From a virus, in IMG/VR virus record IMGVR_UViG_3300047462_000282, positions 62,001 through 126,000 of that record: 64,000 bases of DNA; one strand, written 5' to 3'. Under the pieces are notes generated by a model. That model was not told the DNA's origin and searched no databases. It was given only the letters and a program-made list of their open reading frames with translations. The position numbers were made by a program, and so were the translations under genes. Positions 14,701-55,966 of this stretch are shown one piece after another. How positions within the stretch are numbered: position 1 is the stretch's first letter; each line of letters begins with the position of its first letter.

Positions 14701-14713
14701 TTTGGAGTCAAGT

Positions 14714-15517: not shown

Positions 15518-15537
15518 GGTTGATTAATAAATCAACC
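15518..15537 (+). other. Perfect 8-bp hairpin between endonuclease and next gene
   Basis: GGTTGATT and AATCAACC form a perfect stem with an AATA loop. No T-run follows, so it is not a canonical intrinsic terminator. It could be a transcript-stability or processing hairpin separating the endonuclease gene from the next structural gene, or a protein-binding dyad. Confidence 0.5.
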
Positions 15538-15591
15538 GGAAGCTTTCTATATTCTGGCATAATGTAGAATAATGCGATCATTGAGGCAACC

Positions 15592-16746: not shown

Positions 16747-16748
16747 AT

Positions 16749-17747: not shown

Positions 17748-17755
17748 GGAATACG

Positions 17756-20358: not shown

Positions 20359-20376
20359 ACCTATACATTATAAGGT

Positions 20377-31000: not shown

Positions 31001-34000
31001 GACAGGACCTACAGGACCACAAGGTCCAACAGGAAGTGTTGGTGCAACAGGTCCTACAGGACCTCAGGGTCCAACAGGAACTATTGGTGCGACAGGACCT
31101 ACAGGACCACAAGGTCCAACAGGAACTATAGGAGCTACTGGACCTACTGGACCTCAAGGTCCAACTGGCACTATCGGCGCTACAGGACCTACAGGACCAC
31201 AAGGTCCAACTGGCACTATAGGAGCTACTGGACCTACTGGACCTCAAGGTCCAACCGGAACTATAGGAGCTACTGGACCTACAGGACCTCAAGGTCCAAC
31301 CGGAACTATAGGAGCTACTGGACCTACAGGACCTCAAGGTCCAACAGGAAGTGTTGGTGCAACAGGTCCTACCGGACCTCAGGGTCCAACAGGAAGTGTT
31401 GGTGCAACAGGTCCTACCGGACCTCAGGGTCCAACTGGCACTATCGGCGCTACTGGACCTACCGGACCTCAGGGTCCAACAGGAAGTGTTGGTGCAACAG
31501 GTAATCCGGGAATAAACGCTTACTCTACTTCTGCAGGTTTCACTCAACCAGCTGTAGGTGCAGCTATAGCAATACAAGTTCCATCTGCTTATTGGTTGCA
31601 AGTTGGACAGCACGTCTTCATTGCTTCTGGAGGCGCTTATGTAGTAGTCTCGGGTGCAGTGCCAACTTTCTCTATTCAAAATCTTGGACTATCTGGCGTA
31701 AACATTCCTGTAGGCAGTACAGTTGCTGCATCATTTGTTTCTCCTGATGGTATCCCTGGCGTTACCGGCGTAACAGGTCCTCAAGGACCAACTGGCACCA
31801 TAGGTGCTACAGGTCCAACAGGTCCTGCTGGTGCAACCGGCTCAATAGGCACTACAGGTCCAACAGGTCCTCAAGGACCAACTGGCAGCGTTGGAGCAAC
31901 AGGTCCAACAGGTCCTGCTGGTGCAACCGGCTCAATAGGCACTACAGGTCCAACAGGTCCTCAAGGACCAATTGGCACCATAGGTGCTACAGGCAACCCA
32001 GGTATTAATGCTTATTCAACCTCTGCTGGTTTCACACAGCCTGCTGTTGGTGCTGCTATAGCAATTCAGATTCCTTCTGCTTATTGGCTGCAGGTAGGAC
32101 AATATGTTTTTATCGCAAGTGGTGGAGCTTATGTAGTAGCATCAGGTGCAGTTCCAACCTTCTCGATTCAGAATCTTGGATTGTCTGGTGTAAACATTCC
32201 TGTAGGCAGTACAGTTGCTGCAAGCTTTGTATCCCCAGACGGGATACCAGGAGTAACTGGTGTAACAGGTCCACAGGGACCAACTGGAACCATTGGAGCT
32301 ACAGGTCCTACAGGACCTCAAGGTCCAACAGGAACTATTGGTGCGACAGGACCTACAGGACCACAAGGTCCAACTGGCACTATCGGCGCTACAGGACCTA
32401 CAGGACCACAAGGTCCAACTGGCACTATAGGAGCTACTGGACCTACTGGACCTCAAGGTCCAACCGGAACTATAGGAGCTACTGGACCTACCGGACCTCA
32501 GGGTCCAACAGGAAGTGTTGGTGCAACAGGACCTACTGGACCTCAAGGTCCAACAGGAAGTGTTGGTGCAACAGGTAATCCGGGAATAAACGCTTACTCT
32601 ACTTCTGCAGGTTTCACTCAACCAGCTGTAGGTGCAGCTATAGCAATACAAGTTCCTTCCGCATATTGGATGCAGATTGGTCAATATGTGTTCATTCCAT
32701 CTGGCGGCGCTTATGTTGTCGCATCTGGTTCTGTTCCAACATTCAGTTTGCAGAATCTTGGAATCAGCGGAGTTAATATTCCTGTTGGAAGTTTGGTATC
32801 TGCAGCCTTTATATCTCCAGATGGTGTACCAGGAGTAACTGGCGTAACAGGTCCACAAGGACCAACTGGAACCATTGGAGCTACAGGACCTACAGGACCA
32901 CAAGGTCCAACCGGAACTATAGGAGCTACTGGACCTACAGGACCTCAAGGTCCAACAGGAACTATTGGTGCGACAGGACCTACTGGACCTCAAGGTCCAA
33001 CAGGAACTATAGGAGCTACGGGTCCTACAGGACCTCAAGGTCCAACAGGAACTATTGGTGCGACAGGACCTACAGGACCACAAGGTCCAACAGGAACTAT
33101 AGGAGCTACGGGTCCTACAGGACCACAAGGTCCAACCGGAACTATAGGAGCTACTGGACCTACAGGACCTCAAGGTCCAACCGGAACTATTGGTGCGACA
33201 GGACCTACTGGACCTCAAGGTCCAACAGGAACTATAGGAGCTACGGGTCCTACAGGACCACAAGGTCCAACTGGCACTATCGGCGCTACAGGACCTACAG
33301 GACCACAAGGTCCAACTGGCACTATCGGCGCTACAGGACCTACAGGACCTCAAGGTCCAACAGGACCTCAGGGAGCTACGGGACCTCAAGGACCTGCCGG
33401 TACTCCTGGCTCGTTATTAACTAACGTTCCTTCGGGTTTCGTTTCTCCTGTTCTATCAATCCACATTTTGGGTGATAATTATAATGCCGCACCTACTGGA
33501 CCAAACTTCTTAGATACATATCTTGTTGCTTCTGGTGCTACAGGTGGTTGGACTGGAATGGATGGACATTTACTTCAGTTCGGTTATTCTGCAGTAGGCG
33601 CCTCTGGATGGACCGATATTACTGGGTCTATAATTCAGACCGGTCAAATTTTTGTTATTGGAGCCACTGGTCCAAGAGGAAATCCTACATCATATTTACC
33701 AACTGGTTCATTTGCTAACAAAACGGGACAAATTGTTCAGATGAACAGCAATGCACCTGGTGCGTCCTATACTTTCATGGTTCCAACAACTGGTGTTCAA
33801 GTAATGGTTGCGGGACAGAATGCAGTGTCACAAGATTTTGGATATGTATACGATGCAACGAACGGCGGTTGGAGAAAGCCACAAACAATGGCTTATTACT
33901 CTAATATTAAGACTGCCAACTATACTATTAACGTTAATGATTATTTGATTGCAGTCGGACCATTGACACAAGCAATTACAATTACATTGCCAGATAATCC

Positions 34001-34790
34001 AACTATTGGAGATACCTATGGTGTTAAGGATGCTTTGGGTAGCGCTAGAACATTCAATATTACTGTTTCTGGTAACGGAAAAAATATTGATGCAGCTACC
34101 ACATTCGTGATCACTAAACCGTATGCATCTTATTACTTTGGTTACAATGGAACTCAATGGGGAATTGTAAGTGACTATGGTGTAGCAACTACCAGCGTGC
34201 CTATTTATGCTGGCGGCTCTCTTATAAATGCTGGAACTGCTAACATTAACTTGCTTGGTGGATTGTTAGGTACAACCGGTCCAGCAAATACCATTAATAT
34301 AAACTCCCTAAATGATTTCGTTCAAGTTGGTGTAACTGGTGCTAACTTAAATGCTTCTGGTGCAGGAGCATCTGGTGGTATGATTCAATGGAATAGCGCG
34401 CAATATCTTCAAGGATTACTTGGACATACTACTATTGGAACGGCAGCAGGATGGATTACTGTTCAAAAATCTGGATACTGGGAAGTTAACTATAGTGTTG
34501 CTTTTACTGGAATGCCAAGTGGAGTAGCAGTTGAAGTTACACAATTCTTAGGAGCTACTGGTGGAAACGGACAATTTGGATATGGATCAGGAACTCCAAT
34601 TGCGCAATCTCTTGCTTATTTAACTAATACTTCAAATACAAATGTTCAATCACTAGATAAAAGCTACATAGTATATATTCCTTCTGGAACTAGTATTGAA
34701 ACATATTATAGAAAAGTTGGTGCAGCTATCGCTACTGGATTAGCCGTATCACCAACTGGAAGCATGTTCTTCTTACAGTGTGTTGGCTAA
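28014..34790 (+). CDS. Giant collagen-like tail fibre, 2258 residues
   Basis: An N-terminal beta segment (about 65 residues) precedes eight collagen-like Gly-X-Y tracts. These alternate with seven copies of an 80-residue beta module (modules start near 28700, 29098, 29843, 30696, 31511, 32003 and 32585). Six of those begin [20 protein letters not shown]; the first is divergent. The tracts repeat [15 protein letters not shown] and are extremely rich in Thr at X and Y positions, as in spore-surface BclA. The last 460 residues form a globular tip ending in a beta-rich domain ([11 protein letters not shown] to MFFLQCVG) resembling C1q/TNF-like trimerising heads. The protein should be a long trimeric fibre. 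No chaperone is obvious, but a Gly-rich adhesin-like gene follows. Confidence 0.92.
28217..33412 (+). repeat. Coding tandem repeat array of the collagen-like fibre
   Basis: A near-tandem array of 45-base units encoding [15 protein letters not shown], arranged as eight tracts separated by seven 240-base beta-module repeats. Units differ mainly at synonymous third positions. Neighbouring tracts share identical variants, a sign of slippage, unequal crossover or conversion within the gene. The array creates long spurious open frames on the minus strand. Confidence 0.95.
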
Positions 34791-35726: not shown

Positions 35727-38700
35727 ATGCCTAAAGCCAATGTAAGTGTCTGCATCATCGTTAAAAACGAGCCCCTTTTAGAAAATTGTCTAAAATCTAT
35801 TCGTGATTATGTGGAAGAAATTGTAATAGTAGATACTGGCTCTACTGACAATACCCCAGAAGTTGCTAAGAGATACGCGAATATTTTTGAAGTTTATAGA
35901 GACTGTAATGATCCTCAAACAGGATTAATTGCAAATTTTTCTAAGGCACGTCAGCGCTCTTTTGATTTAGCAACCAAAAAATGGGTTATGTGGGCTGATG
36001 CTGATGATACTATTGTTGGAATTGAAAATTTACATCAAATAATTGAAGATTTCGAAAAATCTAATTCAGAATTAGATGCAATTTCTTATTTATTTCCATA
36101 TGAGTATGCATATGATGCAAATAATCGATGTACATGTTTACATTACAGAGAAAGAGTATTCTCTAATAAGAAGTTTTTCCGATGGCTTGGACCAGTGCAT
36201 GAAGTTGCTGTACCAAATGAGGGCGCTAGAGTTTCTTTAGTTACTAGAGAAGATATTATATGGAAACATAATCGTCAATATAGTCCAAAAGCGCCAGAGC
36301 CCGGTCGTAATCTACGTATTTTAAGAAAATATTTTGAGGAAGTTGGTGGCAGTGATGCTCGCCAAATGTATTATCTTGGTCTTGAGTGCTGTAATGCTGG
36401 ATTAATCGATGAAGCCATTGGTCATCTTTCAAAGTATGTAGATATTTCTGGATGGGACGACGAGCGCGCCATGGCATGCCTAAAGTTAGTAGATATTTAC
36501 TATGCTAGAGGTGATTGGGAAAATGGGCTCAAGTGGGCATTCAAAACTGTTGCTATTCAAGAAAATTGGGGTGAGGGTTATTTCGCTTTAGCTAAAATGT
36601 TTTATCACTTAGCATCAGCTGGAGGACCCAATGAAAGAAGAAATTGGGAGCGCTGCGTTCATTTTGCAAGAACTGGTCTAAGATTGCCTCCTACCAAAAC
36701 TTTATTGTTTGTCAATCCAAATGAAAGAGAAGTTGACATACATAAATACTTAAATTTAGCACTTAATAAGATAGGTGATGTCAAAGCTGCTCTGGCTAGT
36801 GTTATGATTGCCTTGCAAAAGCAACCTAATGACACAATGTTGGCTAACAACAGAAAATTATATGAAGATTTCTTGGCACGCCAAGAAATCGTTAAGTTTC
36901 TTGGAGCTATGAGGGACAACGGTACGATAAATCAAGCCTCAGTTGAAGCTGTTTCTGCCATCATAAACAATCTTCCAGTGCCTGGTAATTTGATAAATAG
37001 TACGCCTCCAACTGGTAGCACTCCAGTTGTTGTAGATAATCAGTTTCCAATAGCTGGCACAACCTCTAATGGACAAGAGTGGGCTATCCCGAACACATAT
37101 GATTTTTCTGGTTTCCCAATTAAGATGACAGATGAACAGCTGCAAGCAGCAGTCATCATGATTTGGAAACAATACATGTTACATGATGAAGTGTTGTCAG
37201 CCATTTCATTCTTAGAAAATGCGCCATATAATGTACGCCACTCGGTTGCAACAGAGAAAGCCCTAAGTCTTACTAAGGGATGTCTCGAATGGATGGGAAC
37301 AGACGAAGCATTTGAGAAAGTGAACTCTCCAGGTTTAGATAGAGAGGCTGGAACTCCATTACCACTTCAATTAAGAGATTCTGCCGAAGCACATCGTTTT
37401 GATTTGATGATGGCTCATATGAAGCCAAGTTCCTCAATAGTAGACTTTGGTAGCATGGATGGCTGTTTCACAAACCGTTATGGCATGGCAGGACACAAAC
37501 CAGTTGGATTAGATGGCTGTGATCACACGGTCAAATTAGCCAATAGAAAGGCGGCTGAATTCAACACTGGTGCGCAACACATTCACACCTATTTTAGTGA
37601 GGCAGAGAATAAGGTTCCTGCACATTCTTTCGATTACGCAACAAGTACTGATACCTATGAGCACATAAAAGACCCAGTAAAAGAAATGTTTGTTCCTGCC
37701 AAGAAAATGCTCAAGGAAGATGGTACATTTTTGCTTGCAACGCCATATGGTGCGTGGATGCGTGGACAATATATCCCTTGGGCACATCCTTGGAATTGGA
37801 CGCATACCGGAGAGAGCTGGCTGAAAGTCACTCCAAGAGCACACTTAATTGCCCCTACACCTTGGACAGTTGCTGCTGATTTCCAAAAGGCAGGTTATTG
37901 GGTCAAAAATAGTTATGCTGACTTGTGTGCAGATAGCTTTAAGAGTGTCGAGGATCAGGGAAACATTTTCGCAGAGGCTTGCGTTAAGCCGCCATCAAAC
38001 TATCCTGGACTTGATATCGTATTCTTCATCGGTGATGGAGTTGAGCAGTGGACACCAGAAACAGTTAAGAAAACTGGCATTGGTGGCAGCGAACTAATGG
38101 CTATAGAAATGACTAAACGTTTAGCAGCGCTGGGTCACAAAGTTAGGGCATATAATAGCTGCGGCAAAAATGGAGAAGGAATTTATGATGGTGTCGAATA
38201 TAGATTCACTAACAAGTTCCAAGATCTTAAGTGTGACGTACTAGTTGTGTCTCGCCGCGCCGATATGTTGGATGATAAATACAACATCCAAGCCAGCCTA
38301 AAGTTACTTTGGGTTCATGATGTATTTGCAATCAATGCATCTAATAAATTACTACTAAAGGCAGATAAGATTCTTGCCCTTTCAGAATGGCATAAGCAAT
38401 TTCTGATTAGTTATCATAATGTTCATCCAGAACACATCTTAGTAACTAGAAATGGTATTAATTTGTCTAGATTTGAAAAGTCCGTTCCAAGAAACAGATT
38501 CAAAACTGTTAATTCTAGTAGTCCAGATAGATCTTGGCCAGTTCTATTAGATGTTTGGCCAGAAATTAAAGCAAAAGTTCCTCAAGCCGAATTACACTTG
38601 TATTATGGTTTCAAAAATTGGGAATTTTCAGCTCAATATCAGCCAGGACATATGGATTTGATTAATAGATTAAAACAACAAATAAAGGATTTGGAAGGTC

Positions 38701-39131
38701 AAGGAGTTGTCTATCATGATAGAGTGACCCAGGAAAAATTGGCAGAAGAATTCCTGTCTGCTGGCGCATGGATTTATCCAACTTGGTTCTCCGAGACCTC
38801 TTGTATTACTGGAATGGAAGTCCAAGCAGCTGGTTTAAGACCTATTACATCAAGCATTGCTGCGCTTAATGAAACCATTGCTGATAGGGGTGTTAGAATT
38901 GATGGGGATTGGACCACACCAGAGTATAAGAAAAAGTTTGTAGATTCTGTAGTTGCAGCACTTCAAAAGGAAGACAATAGCGACCGAGTTGCACTTCAAC
39001 AATATGCTAAAGAACATTTTAGCCTGGATATATTAGCATCAGACTGGGGAAAGATGTTTGAACAGTTAATAGATTCTAAAAAATCTAATCCTGTCATTCC
39101 ATATCAACCAACGAAAGAGTATACGAAATGA
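35727..39131 (+). CDS. Fused glycosyltransferase GT2-TPR-methyltransferase-GT4
   Basis: A 1134-residue multidomain enzyme. Residues 1-130 are a GT2 glycosyltransferase (VSVCIIVKNEP, IVDTGSTDNT, and the WADADD acidic metal motif). Residues 190-380 are TPR-like helical repeats. About residues 550-740 are a class I SAM methyltransferase (SIVDFGSMDGCF motif I, LDG acidic turn, FDYATSTDTYEHI). About residues 760-1110 are a GT4 transferase (KKTGIGGSEL glycine loop, LALSEWH, RNGINLSRF, and a SETSCITGMEVQAAGLRP donor site). It can plausibly build and methylate a short glycan on a protein. It heads the cassette and overlaps the next gene by ATGA. Fusion of all four parts in a phage is unusual. Confidence 0.9.
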   Translation: MPKANVSVCIIVKNEPLLENCLKSIRDYVEEIVIVDTGSTDNTPEVAKRYANIFEVYRDCNDPQTGLIANFSKARQRSFDLATKKWVMWADADDTIVGIENLHQIIEDFEKSNSELDAISYLFPYEYAYDANNRCTCLHYRERVFSNKKFFRWLGPVHEVAVPNEGARVSLVTREDIIWKHNRQYSPKAPEPGRNLRILRKYFEEVGGSDARQMYYLGLECCNAGLIDEAIGHLSKYVDISGWDDERAMACLKLVDIYYARGDWENGLKWAFKTVAIQENWGEGYFALAKMFYHLASAGGPNERRNWERCVHFARTGLRLPPTKTLLFVNPNEREVDIHKYLNLALNKIGDVKAALASVMIALQKQPNDTMLANNRKLYEDFLARQEIVKFLGAMRDNGTINQASVEAVSAIINNLPVPGNLINSTPPTGSTPVVVDNQFPIAGTTSNGQEWAIPNTYDFSGFPIKMTDEQLQAAVIMIWKQYMLHDEVLSAISFLENAPYNVRHSVATEKALSLTKGCLEWMGTDEAFEKVNSPGLDREAGTPLPLQLRDSAEAHRFDLMMAHMKPSSSIVDFGSMDGCFTNRYGMAGHKPVGLDGCDHTVKLANRKAAEFNTGAQHIHTYFSEAENKVPAHSFDYATSTDTYEHIKDPVKEMFVPAKKMLKEDGTFLLATPYGAWMRGQYIPWAHPWNWTHTGESWLKVTPRAHLIAPTPWTVAADFQKAGYWVKNSYADLCADSFKSVEDQGNIFAEACVKPPSNYPGLDIVFFIGDGVEQWTPETVKKTGIGGSELMAIEMTKRLAALGHKVRAYNSCGKNGEGIYDGVEYRFTNKFQDLKCDVLVVSRRADMLDDKYNIQASLKLLWVHDVFAINASNKLLLKADKILALSEWHKQFLISYHNVHPEHILVTRNGINLSRFEKSVPRNRFKTVNSSSPDRSWPVLLDVWPEIKAKVPQAELHLYYGFKNWEFSAQYQPGHMDLINRLKQQIKDLEGQGVVYHDRVTQEKLAEEFLSAGAWIYPTWFSETSCITGMEVQAAGLRPITSSIAALNETIADRGVRIDGDWTTPEYKKKFVDSVVAALQKEDNSDRVALQQYAKEHFSLDILASDWGKMFEQLIDSKKSNPVIPYQPTKEYTK

Positions 39132-40249
39132 AGATTGCTTTCTTATTCAGTCCTTGGGGAGCTGGCAACAGACCGCTAGATTTTAAAGAGCTTTGGACAA
39201 GTTCCAGAGGCTTGACTGGCAGCGATCTTGGCATTGCCATTATTGCAAAAGAAATGGTTAAACGTGGACATGAGGTTTCTCTGTTTACTTTCCATACTGA
39301 CCCAGCTAACAAGCTAGAATCATGGGAAGGCGTTAAGCTATATAATTTCGAAGATGCTGCAACAGTCATTAAGCCAGATTGGGATGCCGTTATCAGTTGG
39401 AACGAACCAGACGCTCTTCGAGGAATATCTAAGAAGCCTCTTCGTATTTGCAATCAGATGTTAAATGATTTTACTTACTGCAAGCCTGGCTTTGATGATT
39501 TTGTTGATGTTTGGTGTTCCCCATGTCAAATGCATATGGAACATCTTAAAAAAACCGCTCCAGACCCAAAGAAATGGACTGTGCTACCTCTTGGCTGTGA
39601 ACCATCTTGGTACAAAGACGGACCAAGAGTTCCTGGTAGAGTAGTTTGGACGTCTTCTGCTGATCGTGGGCTTCATTTGCTATTACAAGAATGGCCAAAA
39701 ATTAAAGCAGCTGTTCCAGAAGCTCATTTGAAAGTATTCTATAATTTCAACTACTCCCATATAGAAAATCTTGAATTCAATGATCAAAATACTCATCCAC
39801 ATGTAAAGGAAATTGCTAATAGAGCAAGATACATGATGGAAATGATGAAAAGACTGAAACCATTGGGCGTGGAGCATGTGGGTTCTATTAGTCGCGCACG
39901 CATGGAACAAGAATTGAGTGAGGCTATGGTACTAGCTTATCCTGTTTCAACTGTAGCGTTTACCGAAGGATTTTCCATTTCAATAATGGAATCATGTGCA
40001 GCTGGAGTATTTCCTGTTATTTCTGATGCCGATTGTTTAGGAAGCATTTATGGAGGAACAGTACCTATGGTTAAGTCTCCTGCTGGGGAACATATGGCTG
40101 AATTTGATTCTTTAGTAATTAAAGGATTAACTGATTCATCTTATCGTTCAGAAGTTATAGATAAGTGCAAGAAGTTTTCTCTAAACTATACTTGGACTAG
40201 TATTGCTGAAAAACTAGAAACACTAATCAAAAAATATCCGGAAATATAA
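39128..40249 (+). CDS. GT4-like glycosyltransferase
   Basis: A 373-residue glycosyltransferase of the GT-B fold. The N-terminus MKIAFLFSPWGAG is the acceptor-side Rossmann strand. TSSADRGLHLLLQEWP and the following strand resemble the linker and nucleotide-binding region of GT4 enzymes. EGFSISIMESCAAG is the EX7E-like donor-sugar site (FxEGFxxxxxE), and the C-terminal helix closes the fold. It overlaps both neighbours (ATGA at 39128, TAATG at 40249), so it is translated with the fused enzyme and the cupin. Donor and acceptor are unknown. Confidence 0.88.
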   Translation: MKIAFLFSPWGAGNRPLDFKELWTSSRGLTGSDLGIAIIAKEMVKRGHEVSLFTFHTDPANKLESWEGVKLYNFEDAATVIKPDWDAVISWNEPDALRGISKKPLRICNQMLNDFTYCKPGFDDFVDVWCSPCQMHMEHLKKTAPDPKKWTVLPLGCEPSWYKDGPRVPGRVVWTSSADRGLHLLLQEWPKIKAAVPEAHLKVFYNFNYSHIENLEFNDQNTHPHVKEIANRARYMMEMMKRLKPLGVEHVGSISRARMEQELSEAMVLAYPVSTVAFTEGFSISIMESCAAGVFPVISDADCLGSIYGGTVPMVKSPAGEHMAEFDSLVIKGLTDSSYRSEVIDKCKKFSLNYTWTSIAEKLETLIKKYPEI

Positions 40250-40668
40250 TGAAAAATAAAGAATATACCAGTTTAGTTAATGAGGGTAAATTTCCAAGTG
40301 AACTTCGTGTTCCATTGGATAAACCATTCGAAGATGCTAGGGGCAAAATCCAAAATCTTGTGCTAGATCCAATTACTAGCGTTGCAATCATTACCAGTAA
40401 AGCTGGAACGGTTAGATCGAATCATTATCATAAGACTGATTGGCATTATTTATATGTTATTTCTGGCTCTATGAAATATTATGAGCGAGATGTTGACTCT
40501 GATAATCAAATTGAGCCTATTGTTGTAAAAGCAGGCGAAATGGTATTTACAGGACCAATGAAAGTTCACAAAACAGAGTTTTTAGAAGATACCGTGATGA
40601 TGAGCTTTGCAAAGAATGTCAGAGATCATGAGCATCACGAAGAGGATGTTGTTCGCGTGGAGTTCTAA
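40249..40668 (+). CDS. Cupin-fold sugar isomerase/epimerase-like protein
   Basis: A 139-residue single cupin domain. FEDARGKIQNLVL is a strand set also seen in nucleotide-sugar cupins (RmlC/QdtA/WxcM relatives). The cupin metal or active-site motif is SNHYHKTDWHYLYVISG with its paired histidines, followed by AGEMVFTGPMKVHKTEF. It is a plausible 3,4-ketoisomerase or epimerase of a 4-keto-6-deoxy sugar made by the dehydratase at 42786. A simple binding cupin cannot be excluded. Overlaps couple it to the GT and the methyltransferase. The C-terminus has a His/Glu cluster (DHEHHEED). Confidence 0.78.
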   Translation: MKNKEYTSLVNEGKFPSELRVPLDKPFEDARGKIQNLVLDPITSVAIITSKAGTVRSNHYHKTDWHYLYVISGSMKYYERDVDSDNQIEPIVVKAGEMVFTGPMKVHKTEFLEDTVMMSFAKNVRDHEHHEEDVVRVEF

Positions 40669-41864
40669 TGAAAGTATTTGAATGCAGACTGTGTAAGGGA
40701 AGACTAAGTGAGCCCAAGATAAATCTTGGGAAAACTCCGCTTGCTAATGAGTTTGTAAAAACTAAAGAGCCTCAGGACTTGTTTCCGCTGGAAGTATGTG
40801 TTTGCGAGTCTTGTGAACACTATCAGTTAAATGAGCAAGTAGAGCCCGAAAGAATGTTTAGAAACTATCTTTTCGTTGCTGGGACATCTCCAGTTAATGT
40901 TGAACATTTCAGACAATACGCCCTCCAAATGGTTGAAAGATTTGATTTACAATCTGATAGTAAAGTGCTAGATATCGCCAGCAATGATGGTACCTTATTG
41001 AAGCACTTCAAAGATTTAGGTTTGCAAATACTTGGCATTGACCCGGCTGTAAATTTAGCCGAAAAAGCTACTAAAAATGGCATAGAGACGATTGCGGAAT
41101 TTTTTACCGAACAATATGCTGATGTTATGCTGGAGAAATATGGTCAATTTGATTTGATTACAGCAAACAATGTGTTTGCTCATGTGCCCGATATGATTGG
41201 ATTTGCAAAGGGTGTAAAAAAACTTCTCAAACCAAATGGAGTTTTTACTTTTGAAGTATCTTATTTTGGCGATGTATGTGATAAAACTTTATTTGATACT
41301 ATTTATCATGAACATACCAGTTATCATACGGTGAAACCACTAATATCATTTTTCAATCAATATCAAATGGAAGTATTTGATATTGAGCCTATAACTAATC
41401 ATGGCGGCTCTATTCGTGTATATGTTGAAAATGCATATGGAGATTACTCTGCTTTGAGTCTTGACTCTTTTATTCATTCGAAATATTATATGGAAAATAA
41501 AGTAGCTAGATTACAAAAAGATATCAAGCTGCTTGGATATGAATTAAGAGAAAAATTACAAGAGCTAAAGTCACAAGGAAAATCTATTGCCATCTATGGG
41601 GTACCAGCAAAAGCAACCACGCTCATGTATGCTTTGAATATCGATGAAAATATGATTGATTTTGCTGTGGATGATGCACCTTTAAAGCAAGGAACATTTA
41701 CACCGGGCAAACACATTCCAGTTTTCCCAACTAAAATGATTTATGCTAAGCATCCTGACTATCTTCTAGTTTTAGCGTGGAATTTTGCCGATTCTATCAT
41801 TGAAAGACATCGCAATTTTGGTGGCAAGTTCATCGTTCCAATTCCGGAACTAAAGGAAGTTTGA
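40668..41864 (+). CDS. Sugar C-methyltransferase, TylC3/EvaC-like
   Basis: A 398-residue protein in three parts. The N-terminal zinc-binding domain has CRLCKG and CESCEH pairs and the LGKTPLANEF strand typical of this family. The middle SAM domain has VLDIASNDGTLL and GIDPAVNLA. The C-terminal domain begins IYGVPAKATTLMY and ends LAWNF. The IYHEHTSYHT motif is the conserved active-site HEH of NDP-hexose C-methyltransferases such as TylC3 and EvaC. It should place a methyl branch on carbon 3 of a 4-keto deoxysugar. The whole architecture is present, so the family call is strong; the exact substrate is unknown. Confidence 0.92.
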   Translation: MKVFECRLCKGRLSEPKINLGKTPLANEFVKTKEPQDLFPLEVCVCESCEHYQLNEQVEPERMFRNYLFVAGTSPVNVEHFRQYALQMVERFDLQSDSKVLDIASNDGTLLKHFKDLGLQILGIDPAVNLAEKATKNGIETIAEFFTEQYADVMLEKYGQFDLITANNVFAHVPDMIGFAKGVKKLLKPNGVFTFEVSYFGDVCDKTLFDTIYHEHTSYHTVKPLISFFNQYQMEVFDIEPITNHGGSIRVYVENAYGDYSALSLDSFIHSKYYMENKVARLQKDIKLLGYELREKLQELKSQGKSIAIYGVPAKATTLMYALNIDENMIDFAVDDAPLKQGTFTPGKHIPVFPTKMIYAKHPDYLLVLAWNFADSIIERHRNFGGKFIVPIPELKEV

Positions 41865-42778
41865 TGTTTTATTTTAGACACGTTAATAGGATGACTTATC
41901 CACAAAAGCACGTATTAGTTTGTGAGGATGATCTTACACAGCAAAAAAGAATAGCAGAACATTTTAGTTCGGTATTTGATACTCAAGGAATAGTTCAGTT
42001 CAGTTTTGTACCTGGTGCTGTGGCAGCCGCATCAATCATTAGCAGCTGTAAAATTGATTTGGTAATTTTAGATCATGACATGCCTGAGGGCAATGGGGCT
42101 GATTTGATAGCTTGGATGAAAGAAAATAAGAAGGATATCCCAATAATTACCTTTTCTGGAATTGCTCAGAATAATGCTAACATGATGGCTGCGGGCGCCA
42201 CTCATCTAGCCGGGAAAGAAGAAGTTATTAGAGGGCAAGTCGATGATCTTATTAAAACAATACTTGGATTAAAACAAGCTAATGTTGGAATTGCTGAAAC
42301 ATACGTTAATACTGTTTGTATCAACACACCTACTGCTACTAGATATTGGGTCATGCCAAATATAATGGTTGGTGGCAGTGTGACAAGCAAAGAAGACTGG
42401 GAACATTTGCAAAAAGCCTACAATATGGGCGCCGTTATCAACGTTGAAACAGAGCATTCTGATGTTGGTAAAGGAATTGATAAACTTCTAGAAATTCAAG
42501 TTCCAGATAATGGTACGCCATTTCCATTTGATGTCGTTAAAAAGGCAGTGCTATTTTCTAAAAATAACATGGATAAAAACATCTATGTGCACTGCCAAAT
42601 GGGAGCTTCACGTAGCCCAGCATTTGCATATGCGGTTTTAAGATACTGTTATAATATGACCCCTCAGCAAGCTTTAGAAAAAATAAATGAGAGCTATCCA
42701 TCTCACAATTATGGTTATCACGGCTATCATCAAACCTATATTGGATCAATAGAACAAGCTTTAGCTGAATTGATATAA
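41864..42778 (+). CDS. Response-regulator receiver fused to dual-specificity phosphatase
   Basis: A 304-residue protein. Residues 10-130 are a receiver domain: the acidic pair in VCEDD, the phospho-acceptor Asp in ILDHDMPEGNG, a Ser/Thr in ITFSGIA and a Lys in LAGKEE. Residues 155-300 are a dual-specificity phosphatase with the loop VHCQMGASRSPAFAY (CX5R, near residues 240-255). The start is ATG 41864, overlapping the previous stop by one base with a GGAAG ribosome site. Phosphorylation of the receiver by a host kinase could switch the phosphatase. No output DNA-binding domain is present. It is embedded in the sugar cassette and co-translated with it, which is unexpected. Confidence 0.88.
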   Translation: MFYFRHVNRMTYPQKHVLVCEDDLTQQKRIAEHFSSVFDTQGIVQFSFVPGAVAAASIISSCKIDLVILDHDMPEGNGADLIAWMKENKKDIPIITFSGIAQNNANMMAAGATHLAGKEEVIRGQVDDLIKTILGLKQANVGIAETYVNTVCINTPTATRYWVMPNIMVGGSVTSKEDWEHLQKAYNMGAVINVETEHSDVGKGIDKLLEIQVPDNGTPFPFDVVKKAVLFSKNNMDKNIYVHCQMGASRSPAFAYAVLRYCYNMTPQQALEKINESYPSHNYGYHGYHQTYIGSIEQALAELI

Positions 42779-42785
42779 AGGTTAT

Positions 42786-43751
42786 ATGAAGAAAATACTT
42801 GTAACAGGCTCATGTGGATTCATTTTCTCTAATTTTATGAGAAAAGTAATACGAGAGACTGCCTATTACGATTTTGTTAGTGTAGATAAAGTAATTGCTC
42901 CATATAATCGTTATAATGTGGAAATTAATCAAGACCACAATTTTTACATGGGTGACATTGCTGATGAAATGTTTATGAATAATGTATTTAGCATTGAAAA
43001 GCCAGATATTATCATTCATGGTGCAGCAGAAAGTTTTGTAGACGATTCCATTAGAAGTGCAGGACCATTTATTCATTCCAATGTTGTTGGAACGCAGGTT
43101 ATGGTAGACCTGGCACTCAAACATGGAGTAGAGCGTTTTGTGTATGTTAGCACTGACGAAGTATATGGACAACTAACTAGTGACAAAGATGAATCTTGGA
43201 CCGAAAAGTCTCCACTCAGCCCTAGAAATCCATACTCAGCATCTAAAGCAGCTGGGGAGCTAATTGTTAAGGCAGCCAACCAAACTCACGGTTTAAATTA
43301 TAACATTACCAGGTGCTGCAATAACTACGGACCTAGCCAACCGCCCCGTAACTTAATTCCTAAAGCCATTTCCTGCATACTAAACGGGACGCCCATTCCT
43401 ATCCATGGAAATGGAAAGCAGTTCCGTGAATGGATTTATGTAGAGGATCATTGCTCTGCTATCATGAAGATTGTAAAAGATGCTCCATTGAATGAGACAT
43501 ACAACATTGGTTCGGGTATTGAGTCCACCAATCTTAAAATGGTACATAAAATTTCCAAATTAATTGGAAATGAAGGTGCTGTGGTCAATTTTGTCAAGGA
43601 CCGTCCTGGACATGATTTCAGATACTCGGTTGATTGTGCCAAAATACACAATTTAGGCTGGTTCCCAAGTTTTGATTTTGATGCAGGCATGAATAAATGT
43701 GTTGATTGGTATCTTAACAATAAGTGGTATTTAGATTCAGTCAAATTATGA
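42786..43751 (+). CDS. dTDP-glucose 4,6-dehydratase-like (RmlB family)
   Basis: A 321-residue extended short-chain dehydrogenase. The N-terminal dinucleotide motif is TGSCGFIFSN, in which the third Gly of GxxGxxG is Phe. The catalytic STDEVYG carries the Thr-Asp-Glu seen in RmlB, the YSASKAAGE motif gives Tyr and Lys, and DRPGHDFRY near the C-terminus is an RmlB-type sugar-nucleotide signature. It should convert an NDP-hexose to its 4-keto-6-deoxy form. The unusual Gly-rich loop may alter cofactor binding. It overlaps the oxidoreductase by ATGA. No nucleotidyltransferase for making the NDP-sugar is visible nearby, so the host would supply it. Confidence 0.9.
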   Translation: MKKILVTGSCGFIFSNFMRKVIRETAYYDFVSVDKVIAPYNRYNVEINQDHNFYMGDIADEMFMNNVFSIEKPDIIIHGAAESFVDDSIRSAGPFIHSNVVGTQVMVDLALKHGVERFVYVSTDEVYGQLTSDKDESWTEKSPLSPRNPYSASKAAGELIVKAANQTHGLNYNITRCCNNYGPSQPPRNLIPKAISCILNGTPIPIHGNGKQFREWIYVEDHCSAIMKIVKDAPLNETYNIGSGIESTNLKMVHKISKLIGNEGAVVNFVKDRPGHDFRYSVDCAKIHNLGWFPSFDFDAGMNKCVDWYLNNKWYLDSVKL

Positions 43752-44539
43752 AAAATTTATTGTTAATTGGTAATGGTAAATGGGGACAAAAATATATCTC
43801 TACTTTATCTGCATTTCCAAATGTAAAATTACAAGTTGCTACTCGTAGTAATTGGAAATCTCTTGTAGATGAGCGTCCCGATGGTGTAATGGTATGCACT
43901 CCACCAGAGTCTCATGTAGAGTTAGCGGCTTATTCTCTTGAAAAAGACATTCCAACTATGATAGAAAAACCACTCAGCCTATCAGTTGCAGAGGCAAGTA
44001 TACTACAGAAATTCTCAGCACCTATCCTTGTTAATCATATTCATCTTTTCTCTACTGCTTATCAAAATTTACAAAGAATGATTAAGCCACACACTATTGA
44101 TAAAATAGTTTCGTTAGGCTATAACAATGGACCCATTAGAAGTTATTCTAGTCTTTGGGATTATGGCTGTCATGATTTATCTATGATTTTAGATTTAACT
44201 AGAACTTTTCCATTTGGAATCCAAGCTAATCAAATTTCTACTGATACTGGAAGTTTGTTTAATATAAAATTAGATTTTGTAACCTTTTCTGCAGAGAGTC
44301 TTGTAGGAAATGGTGGGCAAAAGCCAGTCAGGAAGCTAAAGGTGGAGTGTGGTGGTCTTAAAATAGCCTATGATGATAAAATGCGCTCACCTAATCACTC
44401 TCCTCCTTTAACAAACGCCCTCAATACCTTTATTAGAGCAATTGATGGGGAGAAAGATTATAGATTAGGTTTAGACTTATCAATAAAAGTCATTAAAATA
44501 CTAGAATCTTGTCACAATCTGCTGAATTTGCCTCATTAA
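43748..44539 (+). CDS. Gfo/Idh/MocA-family oxidoreductase
   Basis: A 263-residue protein, short for the family. It begins with the Rossmann strand LLLIGNGKWGQKY, continues with a VMVCTPPESHVELA segment and the MIEKPLSLS motif containing the EKP signature. The C-terminal beta domain is shorter than usual (families often reach 330-380 residues). In branched deoxysugar pathways such enzymes act as 3-ketoreductases (KijD10 type), which would fit the methyltransferase and dehydratase beside it. ATG 43748 (ATGA overlap) is preferred over the longer frame from 43724. Confidence 0.85.
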   Translation: MKNLLLIGNGKWGQKYISTLSAFPNVKLQVATRSNWKSLVDERPDGVMVCTPPESHVELAAYSLEKDIPTMIEKPLSLSVAEASILQKFSAPILVNHIHLFSTAYQNLQRMIKPHTIDKIVSLGYNNGPIRSYSSLWDYGCHDLSMILDLTRTFPFGIQANQISTDTGSLFNIKLDFVTFSAESLVGNGGQKPVRKLKVECGGLKIAYDDKMRSPNHSPPLTNALNTFIRAIDGEKDYRLGLDLSIKVIKILESCHNLLNLPH

Positions 44540-44577
44540 TTTGGTATATCTCTTATAAGACCTATGCTGGAGGTTGA

Positions 44578-45309
44578 ATGAGTAAGTATTATGTTTATGT
44601 GGTCATCAACCAGATAAATAATAAATTATATGTGGGTAAAACCAATAATCCAACGGTAAGATGGCATGACCACAAAAAAGTAGCACTTGGAGGTCGGGAA
44701 AAATATCCAGAAGACTTCTTTGCTATCCATGCCGCCTTACACAAGTATGGCATCTATAATTTTATATTTAAAATTATAGATGAATTCGATGATGAGAACG
44801 AGGCTTATCGAGCTGAGACGCAGTATATTTTACTATCGTGTTCTAACCTTAAAAAATTTGGATACAACTGCAATCTTGGCGGTGAGGGAGGTATTTCGCC
44901 AAGTCCCGAGACCAGGCAGAAGTTGATTGCTGCTGCCAACAAGCCAGAAAAGATAAAACTATCATCAGATATGATGAAGAAACGACATCAGGACAATCCT
45001 GGATTTTTATCAAATGTTCATAAGGGCAATCAGTATACTAAGGGACGAAAACTACCTCAAAAAGAAAAAGACCATCTGTCAAAAATGATGAAAGGACGAT
45101 TTGTTTCGGATGAAACAAAAAAGAAAATGTCCGAAGCTCAAACTGGTGAAAAAAGTTCACGGGCTAAACTAACAGAAAAAGAAGTTCTAGAAATTAGATC
45201 CAAATACATTCCTGGCAAATATGGGTATGTCAAATTATCAAAAGAATATGGTGTCCACGATGAAACGATACGTAGTATTATTAAGAGAACATCGTGGAGT
45301 CACATATGA
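44578..45309 (+). CDS. GIY-YIG homing endonuclease (SegB-like) with NUMOD3 and HTH
   Basis: A 243-residue protein. The GIY-YIG domain is YYVYVVINQINNKLYVGKT with the Arg in VRWHDH and the catalytic Glu in RAETQYILL. The middle holds NUMOD3-type motifs (KGNQYTKGRKL, DETKKKMSEAQTG). The last 50 residues are a helix-turn-helix (KLSKEYGVHDETIRSII). It is inserted between the sugar cassette and the patatin gene, whose start overlaps its stop by ATGA. A GGAGG ribosome site precedes its ATG. Confidence 0.9.
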   Translation: MSKYYVYVVINQINNKLYVGKTNNPTVRWHDHKKVALGGREKYPEDFFAIHAALHKYGIYNFIFKIIDEFDDENEAYRAETQYILLSCSNLKKFGYNCNLGGEGGISPSPETRQKLIAAANKPEKIKLSSDMMKKRHQDNPGFLSNVHKGNQYTKGRKLPQKEKDHLSKMMKGRFVSDETKKKMSEAQTGEKSSRAKLTEKEVLEIRSKYIPGKYGYVKLSKEYGVHDETIRSIIKRTSWSHI

Positions 45310-46166
45310 GGGCTCTTGTACTCAGTGGAGGAGGATCGAAAGGTAGTTATCAATCCGGTGCATTACAATATATACTTGGTGAACTTGAGATTAAATATGA
45401 CATTTTATGTGGAGTATCAGTTGGTGCAATAAACACAGCTTTCCTAGCAATGTATAAGCATGGAGACGAAAAAGAGTCAGCTATCACTCTTAAAAATATG
45501 TGGAGTAAATTAGATAACAGTAAAATATACAAAAGACATTTTCCATTCGGCAGATGGCATGCCATTTGGAAGAAAAGCTTTTATGACAGCTCCCCACTTG
45601 GTGATCTGTTAAGAAGTCATTTGTCATTAGAAAAAATTAGACAGAGTGGCAAAGACATCAATGTAGGTACAGTTTCTCTTAGTTCTGGCAAATACACACT
45701 TTTCAACCAGCATTCAGATTATTTTATCGAAGCAGTAATCGCCTCTGCATCTTTTCCGGGTATGTTGACACCAGTGTCTTTTCTAGGACAACTCTGGACA
45801 GATGGTGGTGTAAAAGAAATCTCTCCAATTAAGAAGGCAGTAGAGATGGGCGCTGATGAAATTGATGTTATTATCACGTCGCCGCAAACTCGTGTTGTTC
45901 GTTTTATAGAAAATCCTACCACTGTTGATATTCTCAAGCGCAGTGTCGATTTATCTACAGATAAAATTATGGCAAATGATATTGAGAAAGTACAAATGCA
46001 CAATAAAATGGCAGAGGCAGGATTTGAAGGCTATAAGTATGTAAAAATTAATATTTTACGTCCGGACTACAATCTGATTGAGGATCTCCTTGATTTTAGA
46101 CCAGAAAAAATCAAGGAAATGATGGAAAAAGGCTACACAGACGCCAAATACAAGTACATAATGTAA
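45306..46166 (+). CDS. Patatin-like phospholipase
   Basis: A 286-residue patatin-like lipid acyl hydrolase. The oxyanion loop GGGSKGSYQSGAL is at residues 7-20, the nucleophile motif GVSVGAIN (GxSxG) near residue 38, and the catalytic Asp in DGGVKEISPI near residue 165. The catalytic dyad is complete. It has no signal peptide. It could hydrolyse membrane phospholipids during lysis or entry, or act on host lipids. I chose ATG 45306 over the longer GTG 45294 frame. It follows the GIY-YIG gene by an ATGA overlap and ends the cassette region. Confidence 0.9.
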   Translation: MRALVLSGGGSKGSYQSGALQYILGELEIKYDILCGVSVGAINTAFLAMYKHGDEKESAITLKNMWSKLDNSKIYKRHFPFGRWHAIWKKSFYDSSPLGDLLRSHLSLEKIRQSGKDINVGTVSLSSGKYTLFNQHSDYFIEAVIASASFPGMLTPVSFLGQLWTDGGVKEISPIKKAVEMGADEIDVIITSPQTRVVRFIENPTTVDILKRSVDLSTDKIMANDIEKVQMHNKMAEAGFEGYKYVKINILRPDYNLIEDLLDFRPEKIKEMMEKGYTDAKYKYIM

Positions 46167-46195
46167 TAATTACATATAGTAAAAGGAGACTATCA

Positions 46196-46525
46196 ATGCC
46201 TAATTTTGCCGATCCAAACGCCGCTAAAGACTATGGTTATGACTTTAACTTTTTTCAAAAAGTAGTCGTTACAGCTGGTAATTTTAATACTGATTGTGAT
46301 GTTCTCATTAACATGAAAGCTCCTACCTATACTGTAACTTTCCAGCTAGAAGCTGGTAGTTCAGTCCAATATTCTTTCAATGGAACCACTGTACACGGCG
46401 ATATGCAGCAAGGTACAACTGGCTATATTACAAGCAACAGTTTGGTCTTCCAAAATCGCACCATTTCTAAAATTTGGTTTAAAGGATCTGGAACTGTTCG
46501 TATTGAGGCATGGGCAATTCGTTAA
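46196..46525 (+). CDS. Small beta-rich virion-type protein, 109 residues
   Basis: No family is recognised. The chain is almost entirely beta (TVTFQLEAGSSVQYSFNG, then ISKIWFKGSGTVRIEAW), typical of a small beta-sandwich in phage structural or surface proteins. The AAAGGAGAC ribosome site is strong, suggesting high translation. It is bounded by accessory genes (patatin and HNH). Confidence 0.68.
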   Translation: MPNFADPNAAKDYGYDFNFFQKVVVTAGNFNTDCDVLINMKAPTYTVTFQLEAGSSVQYSFNGTTVHGDMQQGTTGYITSNSLVFQNRTISKIWFKGSGTVRIEAWAIR

Positions 46526-46573
46526 ATGAACTATTGCGCCTAATTAGCCAATAATATGATATAGGTATGGAAG

Positions 46574-46894
46574 ATGAGAAAGAGCAAGTTAGTTAAGAAC
46601 AAGTGTGAAATCGAGACATGCAATGTTTCGGAGCCTAAGCTACTACATTTCCATCATATTATTGAAAGAACGGAAGTAAATACCAACAATCATGATTTCA
46701 ATTTAGCCATCCTTTGTGCCAACTGCCACGCTTTAACGCATACTGGCAAACTAAAGATCATTGGAGTATTTCCTTCAACAAAATTACCAAATAAAAGAGT
46801 TTTAGTATATGAGTTGGATGGTAAAAGGAATATAGATGGAGTTGATTTTCCATATGTCCAATTTGTAAACAAATCTTTTAAACTACATGGGTGA
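46574..46894 (+). CDS. Small HNH endonuclease
   Basis: A 106-residue HNH nuclease. It has a zinc pair CEIETC, the core FHHIIER, and a later CANCHALTH that completes the metal and zinc ligands. The C-terminal 35 residues are beta-rich. It is likely a free-standing mobile endonuclease, given five others in the window. Its stop is three bases before the next start. Confidence 0.85.
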   Translation: MRKSKLVKNKCEIETCNVSEPKLLHFHHIIERTEVNTNNHDFNLAILCANCHALTHTGKLKIIGVFPSTKLPNKRVLVYELDGKRNIDGVDFPYVQFVNKSFKLHG

Positions 46895-46897
46895 TGA

Positions 46898-47173
46898 ATG
46901 AGTTATAAAATTGATGCAAGTGATCCTACAAATTTGAGTGCCAAAATTTTACCTGAGCGAGAATCTCGCCGTAGAGTTTTGAATTTGGCTCGTGAAATGG
47001 GTTGCGAAAAAGACATGCTCCTACTTTTCGCAAAGTATGACAGAATGATGAAAGCCTGCACTGATGATAAAGAAAGATCGGATATTGGTAAGTTAGCCAA
47101 TGTAGAAGTTTACAAGCTACTCGGCGGCGGTGGTGAGTTAGTTGTTGATGGACAGATAGTCTGCAAAGGCTAA
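46898..47173 (+). CDS. Hypothetical protein, 91 residues
   Basis: Not recognised. It is helical, with a basic RESRRRVLNLAREMG helix and a Gly-rich GGGGELVVDGQ turn near the C-terminus. It starts just after the HNH gene without a strong ribosome site and is followed by the cold-shock gene, so it may be an early or regulatory small protein. Confidence 0.6.
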   Translation: MSYKIDASDPTNLSAKILPERESRRRVLNLAREMGCEKDMLLLFAKYDRMMKACTDDKERSDIGKLANVEVYKLLGGGGELVVDGQIVCKG

Positions 47174-47189
47174 AATAAAAGGAAATGTA

Positions 47190-47426
47190 ATGAGTAATGA
47201 TAGCAAGTTTGTTGGTGAAGTATTGTGGTTCGATCCTAAGAGAGGATTTGGATTTATTGGCTGGGAAAAAGAGGGAGTGAAACAGAAAGATCTGTTCGTT
47301 CATTTCTCCGATATTTCTTGTGAAGGCTTTAAAACCTTATACAAGAGTCAGAAAGTGTCGTTTGGTCTCGGTACCAACGTTCGCGGCGATCCAAAAGCCA
47401 CAGAAGTAACAGTTCTTAAGAACTAA
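47190..47426 (+). CDS. Cold-shock-domain protein
   Basis: A 78-residue CspA-like OB fold. It has GEVLWFDPKRGFGFIG, containing the RNP1-like KRGFGFI motif, and DLFVHFSDI with the RNP2-like LFVHF core, ending GDPKATEV. It should bind single-stranded nucleic acid and could act as an RNA chaperone during infection. An AAAGGAAATG ribosome site precedes the ATG. It is convergent with the minus-strand trio. Confidence 0.9.
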   Translation: MSNDSKFVGEVLWFDPKRGFGFIGWEKEGVKQKDLFVHFSDISCEGFKTLYKSQKVSFGLGTNVRGDPKATEVTVLKN

Positions 47427-47708
47427 TTACTTCTTTATAAACATCTCAATTATTTGAACAATCAGGGATAACAATCCTGTGACGAATAACACTTGAATTC
47501 TGAATAGATCTTTACTGGTCCGTTCAGAGTTAGTGACCAGTTTTTCCATCTTTTCTTCCATGTCGGCATCTCTTTTAGCGCCATCTTCTAGATGTGTAAT
47601 AATTTCTTCATTTTGCTCCGCTACCGCAGTTTCGATTTCGATAGCCTTTCTATTAACTTCTAGAATAATTTCCATGTCTCTTTTTTTGATATTGTCGTCG
47701 TTTGCCAT
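47427..47708 (-). CDS. Coiled-coil protein with C-terminal membrane segment
   Basis: A 93-residue protein: about 60 residues of charged helix or coiled coil, then one hydrophobic segment (LFVTGLLSLIVQIIEMF) at the C-terminus and KK as the last residues. A single C-terminal anchor with a cytoplasmic coil suggests a membrane-tethered accessory protein; holin or spanin roles are possible but not supported by motifs. GAGGG precedes the start. It is third in the minus-strand trio. Confidence 0.7.
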   Translation of the reverse strand: MANDDNIKKRDMEIILEVNRKAIEIETAVAEQNEEIITHLEDGAKRDADMEEKMEKLVTNSERTSKDLFRIQVLFVTGLLSLIVQIIEMFIKK

Positions 47709-47727
47709 AAATCCCTCAAAATAGAAA

Positions 47728-47901
47728 TTATTTTTTAGCTTGAGTTTTCTTTTCCTTACGAGTTTTTATCTTAGTGATTACCTTGTCACACTTTTCATTC
47801 AACTCTTTATATTCGTTGAGCGTTTTCTCTTCAACATTATCTGTTTCAGATTCAAGTAAAGATAGTTCTTCGGCGGCAGCGGTCTTGTGATTACTGTGCA
47901 T
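47728..47901 (-). CDS. Small charged protein, 57 residues
   Basis: On the minus strand an ATG at 47901 opens a 57-residue frame (MHSNHKTAAAEE, then an acidic and a Lys-rich helix ending TQAKK). An AGGGA ribosome site lies about 9 bases upstream. It fits tightly between the two other minus-strand genes, which supports a real gene. Function unknown. Confidence 0.65.
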   Translation of the reverse strand: MHSNHKTAAAEELSLLESETDNVEEKTLNEYKELNEKCDKVITKIKTRKEKKTQAKK

Positions 47902-47906
47902 AGCAG

Positions 47907-48302
47907 TTATCCCTTTTTTGTGATGAGTGGCATGGTATCCAACTCTGCGGTATCGGCATTTTCTTTGGCAAAATCTTCATCCGATACATTTAGTTCTTCG
48001 TACTTTTCTTCTTTAATGACTAGCACTGATCGCTCGCGACTTGGAATAAATGTCTCGCGAGTCATTGGTACGTTCGCTTTAAAAATTTCTGGTTCCAATT
48101 TACGAACAATGATTTTGTCTCTTTTCTTCCAAATAGAGCCTGACTCTACTGATTTTGTTAACTGCTCAGCGGTGTATTGGTAATGTCTTTTATCCAATAA
48201 ATTGACAGAGGAATAAGCCTTAATGGTCAGATTTAGATCTGCCAAGCTAACATTCCTTGCCGAAATATTGGTCACCCAAAAGGTGGGCTGAGCTATTTTC
48301 AT
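47907..48302 (-). CDS. Hypothetical minus-strand protein, 131 residues
   Basis: Not recognised. The first half is beta-rich (PTFWVTNISARNVSLADL, then VNLLDKRHYQYTAEQL) with a Lys/Arg basic patch; the second half is acidic. It heads a three-gene minus-strand operon. It has no Shine-Dalgarno; its ATG sits in AGCATATTATT, a context shared with two plus-strand genes here. Confidence 0.65.
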   Translation of the reverse strand: MKIAQPTFWVTNISARNVSLADLNLTIKAYSSVNLLDKRHYQYTAEQLTKSVESGSIWKKRDKIIVRKLEPEIFKANVPMTRETFIPSRERSVLVIKEEKYEELNVSDEDFAKENADTAELDTMPLITKKG

Positions 48303-48305
48303 AAT

Positions 48306-48321
48306 AATATGCTGGCATATT
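48306..48321. promoter_or_regulatory. Dyad in divergent gap, likely operator or promoter element
   Basis: AATATGC-TG-GCATATT is a perfect 7-bp inverted repeat in the 47-base gap between divergent genes at 48302 (minus) and 48350 (plus). It overlaps the AGCATA start-context motif of the minus gene. A regulator binding here could control both directions. Confidence 0.45.
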
Positions 48322-48349
48322 CATAAATTGCCATACAAATAGAGGCATC

Positions 48350-48685
48350 ATGATCACGGTCTTATCTTACTTTCCAGGAAACAAAGTCACTCTTTTTCTA
48401 GAGGTTGTAGATGGTTATGGCAGAGTAAATAGCATTACCACACCTCAAATAGATGGTATTTTACTGCCCACTTTTACAGCAGCTCCTGGATATCCACAAC
48501 CTATGTCACAATTAGACATTGGTCTATATTACTACCAATTTGTATTGCCTCAAGGCGCCTCTGCAGTAGGCAGCTATTTAGTTGAAGCCTCTTATACTTA
48601 TCAAGATGGATATGTAAATAGTCAATTATATCAAATTGTAGTGCTTGCTCCATTCGGTAACTTCAGCACAACGGTGGTGGGTTAA
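48350..48685 (+). CDS. Ig-like virion protein, 111 residues
   Basis: A beta-sandwich-like protein (KVTLFLEVVDGYGRV, ending with SYLVEASYTYQDGYVNSQLYQIVV). The pattern of a short variable head then a repeated-strand domain is shared with the first 110 residues of the next protein, suggesting a duplicated domain. It probably belongs to the tail or neck. GAGGCATC precedes the start. Confidence 0.65.
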   Translation: MITVLSYFPGNKVTLFLEVVDGYGRVNSITTPQIDGILLPTFTAAPGYPQPMSQLDIGLYYYQFVLPQGASAVGSYLVEASYTYQDGYVNSQLYQIVVLAPFGNFSTTVVG

Positions 48686-48686
48686 A

Positions 48687-49586
48687 ATGGTAATTAAAGC
48701 TCGTGGCGAATTACTAGACGTAACAGATCAGGTTAACTTAACTGTTCAATTCAAAGACCAGTTTGGTAATCCTATCGATACGGATTCTTTTCCACAAATT
48801 ACTATCATTCAGCCAAGTGGTTTAGTTGCATTGGCGCCGACTTCTACTGGTGTAGCTCGCACTGGCGTCGGACAGTACTCTTTTATTTACACTATTCCTA
48901 TCAACGGTCCATATGGTGTGTTCGCTGATGTTTGGGTTGGCTATATCGGTGGGTTTAGAGTAGAAACTACTTTTCAGTTTGTGGTATCCCACACTGATCT
49001 TCCAGCCCTTAATACAGACGGTTACGTTCATTTGGGTGACGATCCGGGTTTCCAATACTCTCAAATTGCTATTAAGAACATCAACAAGCTCATCAAGTCA
49101 CTAAAAGCAAGACTTAATAGTGCTGGCAAAGCTAAGGCTGCCGATGCCTATGGAAATGTTATCTATGTAGACTGCGATATCTTCTCAGTTGATATGCTAA
49201 CTACGTTTATTGCTACATCATTATGGGATTTCAACCAAGTTCCATATTTTACGTTCTTTGACTTCGACGACTCCGATTTCATCGAGCAATTTGGAGAAAT
49301 ATTGGTAGAGGGTGCAACCCTATATGCATTAGCATCTAAGGCTTTGATTGAGCGTGGTCGTGAATTTCAAATCACTGATAATGGTGTCAATTTCAATCCA
49401 CCAACTGTGTCTGAGTTAATGCAAACTCAATATAGTACGCTACTAGCCCATTACTGGGAAAAATTAAAATACATCAAGAACAGCCTACGTCCGTCACCAA
49501 GAGGTTTGGGTGTGTTCAGCATGAATAGCGGTATTAACCCAGCCTTTGCAAGATTACGCCACCTCCGCGCGAGACGCCTCATTTGA
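48687..49586 (+). CDS. Virion protein with Ig-like N-domain, 299 residues
   Basis: The N-terminal 115 residues are Ig-like (VNLTVQFKDQFGNPIDT, then the GQYSFIYTIPINGPYG region). The C-terminal two-thirds is helical with an LARRGL-type basic end. The start is ATG 48687, two bases after the preceding stop. The last ten codons are GC-rich with Arg and CTC codons (CGC, GCG, CTC) unlike the rest of the gene, and the LAGLIDADG gene follows 40 bases later, which suggests that end was replaced during homing. Neck or tail role is likely but unproven. Confidence 0.68.
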   Translation: MVIKARGELLDVTDQVNLTVQFKDQFGNPIDTDSFPQITIIQPSGLVALAPTSTGVARTGVGQYSFIYTIPINGPYGVFADVWVGYIGGFRVETTFQFVVSHTDLPALNTDGYVHLGDDPGFQYSQIAIKNINKLIKSLKARLNSAGKAKAADAYGNVIYVDCDIFSVDMLTTFIATSLWDFNQVPYFTFFDFDDSDFIEQFGEILVEGATLYALASKALIERGREFQITDNGVNFNPPTVSELMQTQYSTLLAHYWEKLKYIKNSLRPSPRGLGVFSMNSGINPAFARLRHLRARRLI

Positions 49587-49626
49587 GGGCATGAAGGTTT
49601 GTTCAAGTGCTGATATATAAGTCAGT

Positions 49627-50619: not shown

Positions 50620-50629
50620 TTCCAATTAA

Positions 50630-51247: not shown

Positions 51248-51325
51248 GCTGCCCTATCTTATATCTGATTGTTGTGTCTGTCAAGATGTAAAATTATGCG
51301 GATATGACTATTTTATCATAAAGTT

Positions 51326-51847: not shown

Positions 51848-51869
51848 ACTAATAAAATAGCATATTAGT

Positions 51870-53801: not shown

Positions 53802-53851
53802 AATGCAGAGTAATAAAGTAACATAATACTTAAGAAAACAGAGAGCAATAG

Positions 53852-55447: not shown

Positions 55448-55492
55448 TATAGCGATATATTACTTATTTTGCATGCTCAATGAGGAGATCGT

Positions 55493-55951: not shown

Positions 55952-55966
55952 TCTTATGGAACAAAA

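Follow-up and report, generated by a model that had tools for sequence, protein, structure and literature searches.

A large-phage gene predicted to join a receiver domain to a Cys-based dual-specificity phosphatase within a glycan gene cluster

An uncultured large phage carries a gene whose 304-amino-acid product combines an N-terminal receiver domain with a C-terminal dual-specificity phosphatase (DSP). The gene is located at positions 41864–42778 (+ strand) of the window, the 64,000-nucleotide stretch analysed here, which represents bases 62,001–126,000 of a 193,526-base (∼194 kb) viral record. The explanation that we favour, tentatively and with somewhat less than even confidence, is that the fusion acts as an orphan response regulator, with the Cys-based DSP providing its output and the gene belonging to a glycan-building cassette of this phage.

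The gene is a single intact open reading frame starting with the ATG at 41864, which shares one base with the stop codon of the upstream gene (TGATG) and is preceded at a distance of four bases by a Shine–Dalgarno-like AAGGAAG (41853–41859); its own stop codon ends at 42778. Of the six possible frames of this interval, only that of the gene had a positive codon statistic, all others being negative, and the third-position GC content of the two halves (0.284 and 0.282) equals the phage's own value as determined from neighbouring genes. A second viral record of 178,722 bases showed 100% identity across 12,888 bp including the fusion gene, which speaks against a one-off assembly chimera and carries no information on conservation.

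Both halves exceeded the curated Pfam cut-offs, in agreement with the domain identities proposed in the sequence-only reading. The N-terminal half matched the receiver family PF00072 (3e-11, 43.9–45.7 bits versus a cut-off of 30.2) at 41912–42196 (+), and the domain extends to about 42280, spanning residues 10 to 135 or so. Completeness of a receiver is judged by five residues (PMC12632262), two of them acidic, the others being the acceptor Asp, a Ser or Thr, and a Lys; all five are present, namely E21/D22 (41924–41929), D70 (42071–42073), S98 (42155–42157) and K118 (42215–42217). Translation and alignment thereby bore out the earlier claim that the key receiver residues are kept, D70 lying within LDHDMP and K118 within AGKEE. 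K118 is situated beyond the end of the Pfam alignment, and in a MAFFT alignment it shared a column with the Lys of a conventional receiver. Two features depart from the usual pattern: K118 is followed by Glu where Pro is customary, and the acceptor Asp lies within an LDHD motif. AlphaFold modelled the receiver poorly, both within the full-length protein and alone (mean pLDDT 43 alone), because a sequence alignment was lacking, and the receiver fold therefore rests on the sequence profile, although the order of the predicted elements was consistent with (βα)5. A PADLOC match confined to the receiver half (E 0.002) was dismissed as weak.

The C-terminal half matched PF00782 (4.5e-9, 36.7 bits versus a cut-off of 33.5), and the DSP occupies residues 142–304 approximately (42287–42775, +). 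It possesses the HC(X5)R loop with C244 (42593–42595) and R250 (42611–42613) as well as an upstream D215 (42506–42508), so that the phosphatase signature HCQMGASRS noted previously is indeed intact. In an alignment of eight sequences from phage and bacterial relatives, D215, H243, C244, G247 and R250 were invariant. The AlphaFold model of this half was a confident DUSP fold with pLDDT values mostly above 90, and the nearest solved structures found by Foldseek in the PDB were DUSPs and PTPMT1 (E 3e-8 and weaker, of the order of 1e-8 to 1e-6, TMt up to 0.77). Weak similarity was also seen to the PTP-NADK, Tc-R-P, PTP-SAK and Init_tRNA_PT models. The fusion thus shares with the DSPc/DUSP family (PF00782; PTPMT1, DUSP10, YVH1, DUSP5) the fold, the HCX5R loop and the general-acid Asp, whereas it differs from the PDB DUSPs, to which it is about 20% identical, in being phage-borne, in bearing a receiver in front and in being surrounded by glycan genes.

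Two phage records contain the closest relatives of the DSP, and neither of these relatives has a receiver. The contig IMGVR_UViG_3300031772_005893 is syntenic with the glycan cassette of the window (the end of the large gene is 53% identical between the two) and has kept the DSP in a like cluster, where at 4521–5888 a DSP with 41% identity is fused N-terminally to a SAM methyltransferase in a protein of 455 amino acids, the stop codon of this gene overlapping the next glycosyltransferase gene. The 202 kb phage IMGVR_UViG_3300032053_000004 encodes a standalone DSP of 169 amino acids (42% identity). Both proteins belong to the same DSP subfamily as that of the fusion (41–42%), with the motifs HCQMG[GA]SRSPA and E-x-E-H-x-D in common, and are unlike it in being standalone or methyltransferase-fused. 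As the DSP is constant while its partner varies (receiver, methyltransferase or none), the receiver appears to be an optional addition in one lineage; the older, conserved role of the gene family is probably that of a DSP, the receiver being a control module added in this lineage. A comparison of the methyltransferase part of the DSP fusion in the syntenic contig with the methyltransferase inserted in the gene at 35727–39131 of the window did not support the idea that the two are the same.

The sugar-operon setting described in the sequence-only reading was confirmed by the annotation of the flanking genes, those of the cluster between 35727 and 44539 all lying on the + strand. Upstream of the cluster, a large tail-type gene (28014–34790), whose product we infer to be a tail protein from its size, repetitive composition and position, is followed by a gene for a glycine-rich protein and then by a multidomain GT2–methyltransferase–GT4 glycosyltransferase gene (35727–39131). 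After the latter come genes for a GT4-like glycosyltransferase (39128–40249), a sugar-isomerase-like cupin (40249–40668) and a protein of the NDP-sugar C-methyltransferase type (40668–41864; PF08421, PF13489 and PF08484), the first three of these four genes having homologues in the syntenic contig (55–64%, 56% and 46% identity, respectively). Downstream of the fusion gene are a dTDP-glucose 4,6-dehydratase-like (RmlB-like) gene (42786–43751; TIGR01181, 350 bits, just below the cut-off of 365) and a gene for a Gfo/Idh/MocA oxidoreductase (43724–44539). NTP_transferase, RmlD and epimerase genes are found elsewhere in the phage record, and glycan cassettes of a like kind have been described for large phages (PMC7824862). 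In the 42 kb spring-water podovirus MW202718.1, the major capsid gene is immediately followed by a glycosyltransferase/methyltransferase cassette (12022–20853), which includes a homologue of the gene at 35727–39131 and no annotated phosphatase. The position of the cassette behind a tail-type gene in the window, and of a similar one behind a capsid gene in MW202718.1, is compatible with glycosylation of either the host surface or virion proteins. GIY-YIG homing-endonuclease-like genes are interspersed among the glycan genes of both syntenic phages, at 44578–45309 of the window and at 3525–4352 and 7732–8511 of IMGVR_UViG_3300031772_005893, which suggests that they help to shuffle the cassette; another such gene is present at 14654–15487 of the window. 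A patatin-like phospholipase gene (45294–46166; PF01734, 2.5e-29) is located just past the cassette.

Among the Pfam matches listed for the phage record, neither a HATPase_c histidine kinase nor a second receiver was found, nor was a Ser/Thr/Tyr-type kinase of the Pkinase family. Any phosphodonor would therefore be a kinase of the host or acetyl phosphate, and a host two-component kinase may plausibly control the fusion. According to the orphan response regulator explanation, D70 would be phosphorylated during infection by a histidine kinase of the host or from acetyl phosphate, the altered receiver surface would raise or lower access to C244, and the DSP, acting via a phosphocysteine intermediate, would remove phosphate from a sugar, glycan or protein in the phage glycan pathway, so that the phage would tie glycan synthesis to the state of the host. 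The one pointer to the substrate of the DSP, which may be a glycan enzyme, a sugar phosphate or something else, is the gene neighbourhood. That the Pfam matches listed for the phage include no kinase able to phosphorylate a protein substrate counts against this explanation.

The assignment as an orphan regulator draws on the two above-threshold domains, the five receiver residues, the invariant DSP residues and the glycan neighbours, and is weakened by the finding that neither of the closest DSP relatives has a receiver, by the Glu after the Lys, by the cREC-like DHD and by the poor receiver model. In two rival explanations the receiver transmits no signal. The DSP may be the working part, with the receiver insensitive to phosphorylation and serving only for docking, dimerization or stability, as would fit the free variation of the DSP partner among phages, from the standalone 169-amino-acid protein to the methyltransferase fusion of 455 amino acids, and the absence of a cognate kinase from the phage record; however, a purely docking role would not require the five phosphorylation-site residues, all of which are retained, and we consider this explanation rather unlikely. 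Alternatively, a receiver fragment may have become joined to the phage DSP recently and by chance, leaving the receiver without a role, which would agree with the restricted occurrence of the fusion. The fusion was seen only in this phage and in the second record, identical over the 12.9 kb compared, and in none of the phage, plasmid or sampled bacterial collections. Using tblastn, no receiver–DSP fusion was detected in 50,697 phage records or 72,556 plasmids, and scans of IMG/VR revealed none beyond the identical record. Scans of GTDB contigs with narrow, short peptide patterns were negative, as were those of 284 genomes of one phylum (a weak scan that lacked a positive control), 379 genomes of that same phylum and 201 genomes of another phylum, and the bacterial DSP relatives examined were standalone proteins. 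Given the short peptide patterns of the contig scans and the missing positive control of the 284-genome scan, this absence is only suggestive. The collections searched likewise yielded no relative of the fusion that could show selection on the receiver, a point that also weakens the orphan regulator explanation. Against a chance fusion stand the intact receiver, the phage-typical codon usage and the retention of every catalytic residue, and we consider it improbable.

A further explanation concerns the cyclic-phosphate processing receiver family cREC (PF20274) of jumbo phages, which has the receiver fold family, the LDHD motif and a phage location in common with the fusion. The N-terminal domain could accordingly be a cREC-like hydrolase opening cyclic phosphates, either RNA 2′,3′-end or ADP-ribose 1″,2″-cyclic phosphate, with the DSP stripping off the resulting monophosphate in RNA repair or anti-defence clean-up; cyclic-phosphate-opening chemistry has been proposed for cREC (PMC9503650, PMC7824862). 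Apart from the shared LDHD motif, the subthreshold cREC match of the receiver half (9.7e-5, 23–24 bits versus a cut-off of 27) and the weak similarity of the DSP to the PTP-NADK, Tc-R-P, PTP-SAK and Init_tRNA_PT models argue for it, as does the fact that IMGVR_UViG_3300032053_000004, the phage with the standalone DSP, encodes a true cREC protein (54 bits) elsewhere, at about 10046–10363 of its contig (1489–1881 of the stretch examined). The conventional receiver model, however, scored about twofold higher on the fusion (45.7 versus 23.9 bits), and the MP turn, Ser and signalling Lys of true receivers are kept, whereas the true cREC of that phage lacks the Lys. Moreover, the immediate neighbours of the fusion gene are glycan genes and not NAD/ADP-ribose or RNA-repair genes, Nudix, sirtuin, KptA and RNA-ligase genes not being adjacent. 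Membership of the receiver half in cREC was thus rejected on its score and its Lys, and a cREC-like hydrolase is improbable and a weaker explanation than the orphan response regulator.

Receiver–phosphatase fusions are known with PP2C outputs of the RsbU/SpoIIE type (PMC5847659). In these, as in the fusion, a phosphorylatable receiver precedes the phosphatase and presumably gates it, but PP2C is a metal-dependent Ser/Thr phosphatase, while the protein described here has a Cys-based DSP and is encoded on a phage record without a kinase. The literature searched, which did not extend to subscription papers, yielded no receiver that has a DSP as its output. That the fusion represents the first response regulator with a Cys-based DSP output, through which a host histidine kinase would control how fast phage-directed glycan synthesis proceeds, is on present evidence unlikely. 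If true, such an output would join His-Asp and Cys-phosphatase signalling in one protein and provide a direct link from His-Asp to Tyr, Ser or sugar-phosphate chemistry on a phage genome, and on a kinase-less phage the fusion would read the two-component signalling of the host. How phages put such proteins together is shown by the exchange of DSP partners, which may be a receiver, a methyltransferase or absent.

Other parts of the phage record were also surveyed for their gene content. Bases 1–40000 of the record encode host-like IF-3, ribosomal protein S21, a trigger factor N-domain, peptide deformylase and Clp protease, together with an IS200-type Y1 transposase and a Cas12f1-like TNB (TnpB) match, the latter two likely constituting an IS605-type element. 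As some jumbo phages are known to encode tubulins, it is of note that a match to the Tubulin/FtsZ-family GTPases (PF00091, 2.9e-14) was detected within bases 40001–60000 or 166001–193526 of the record.
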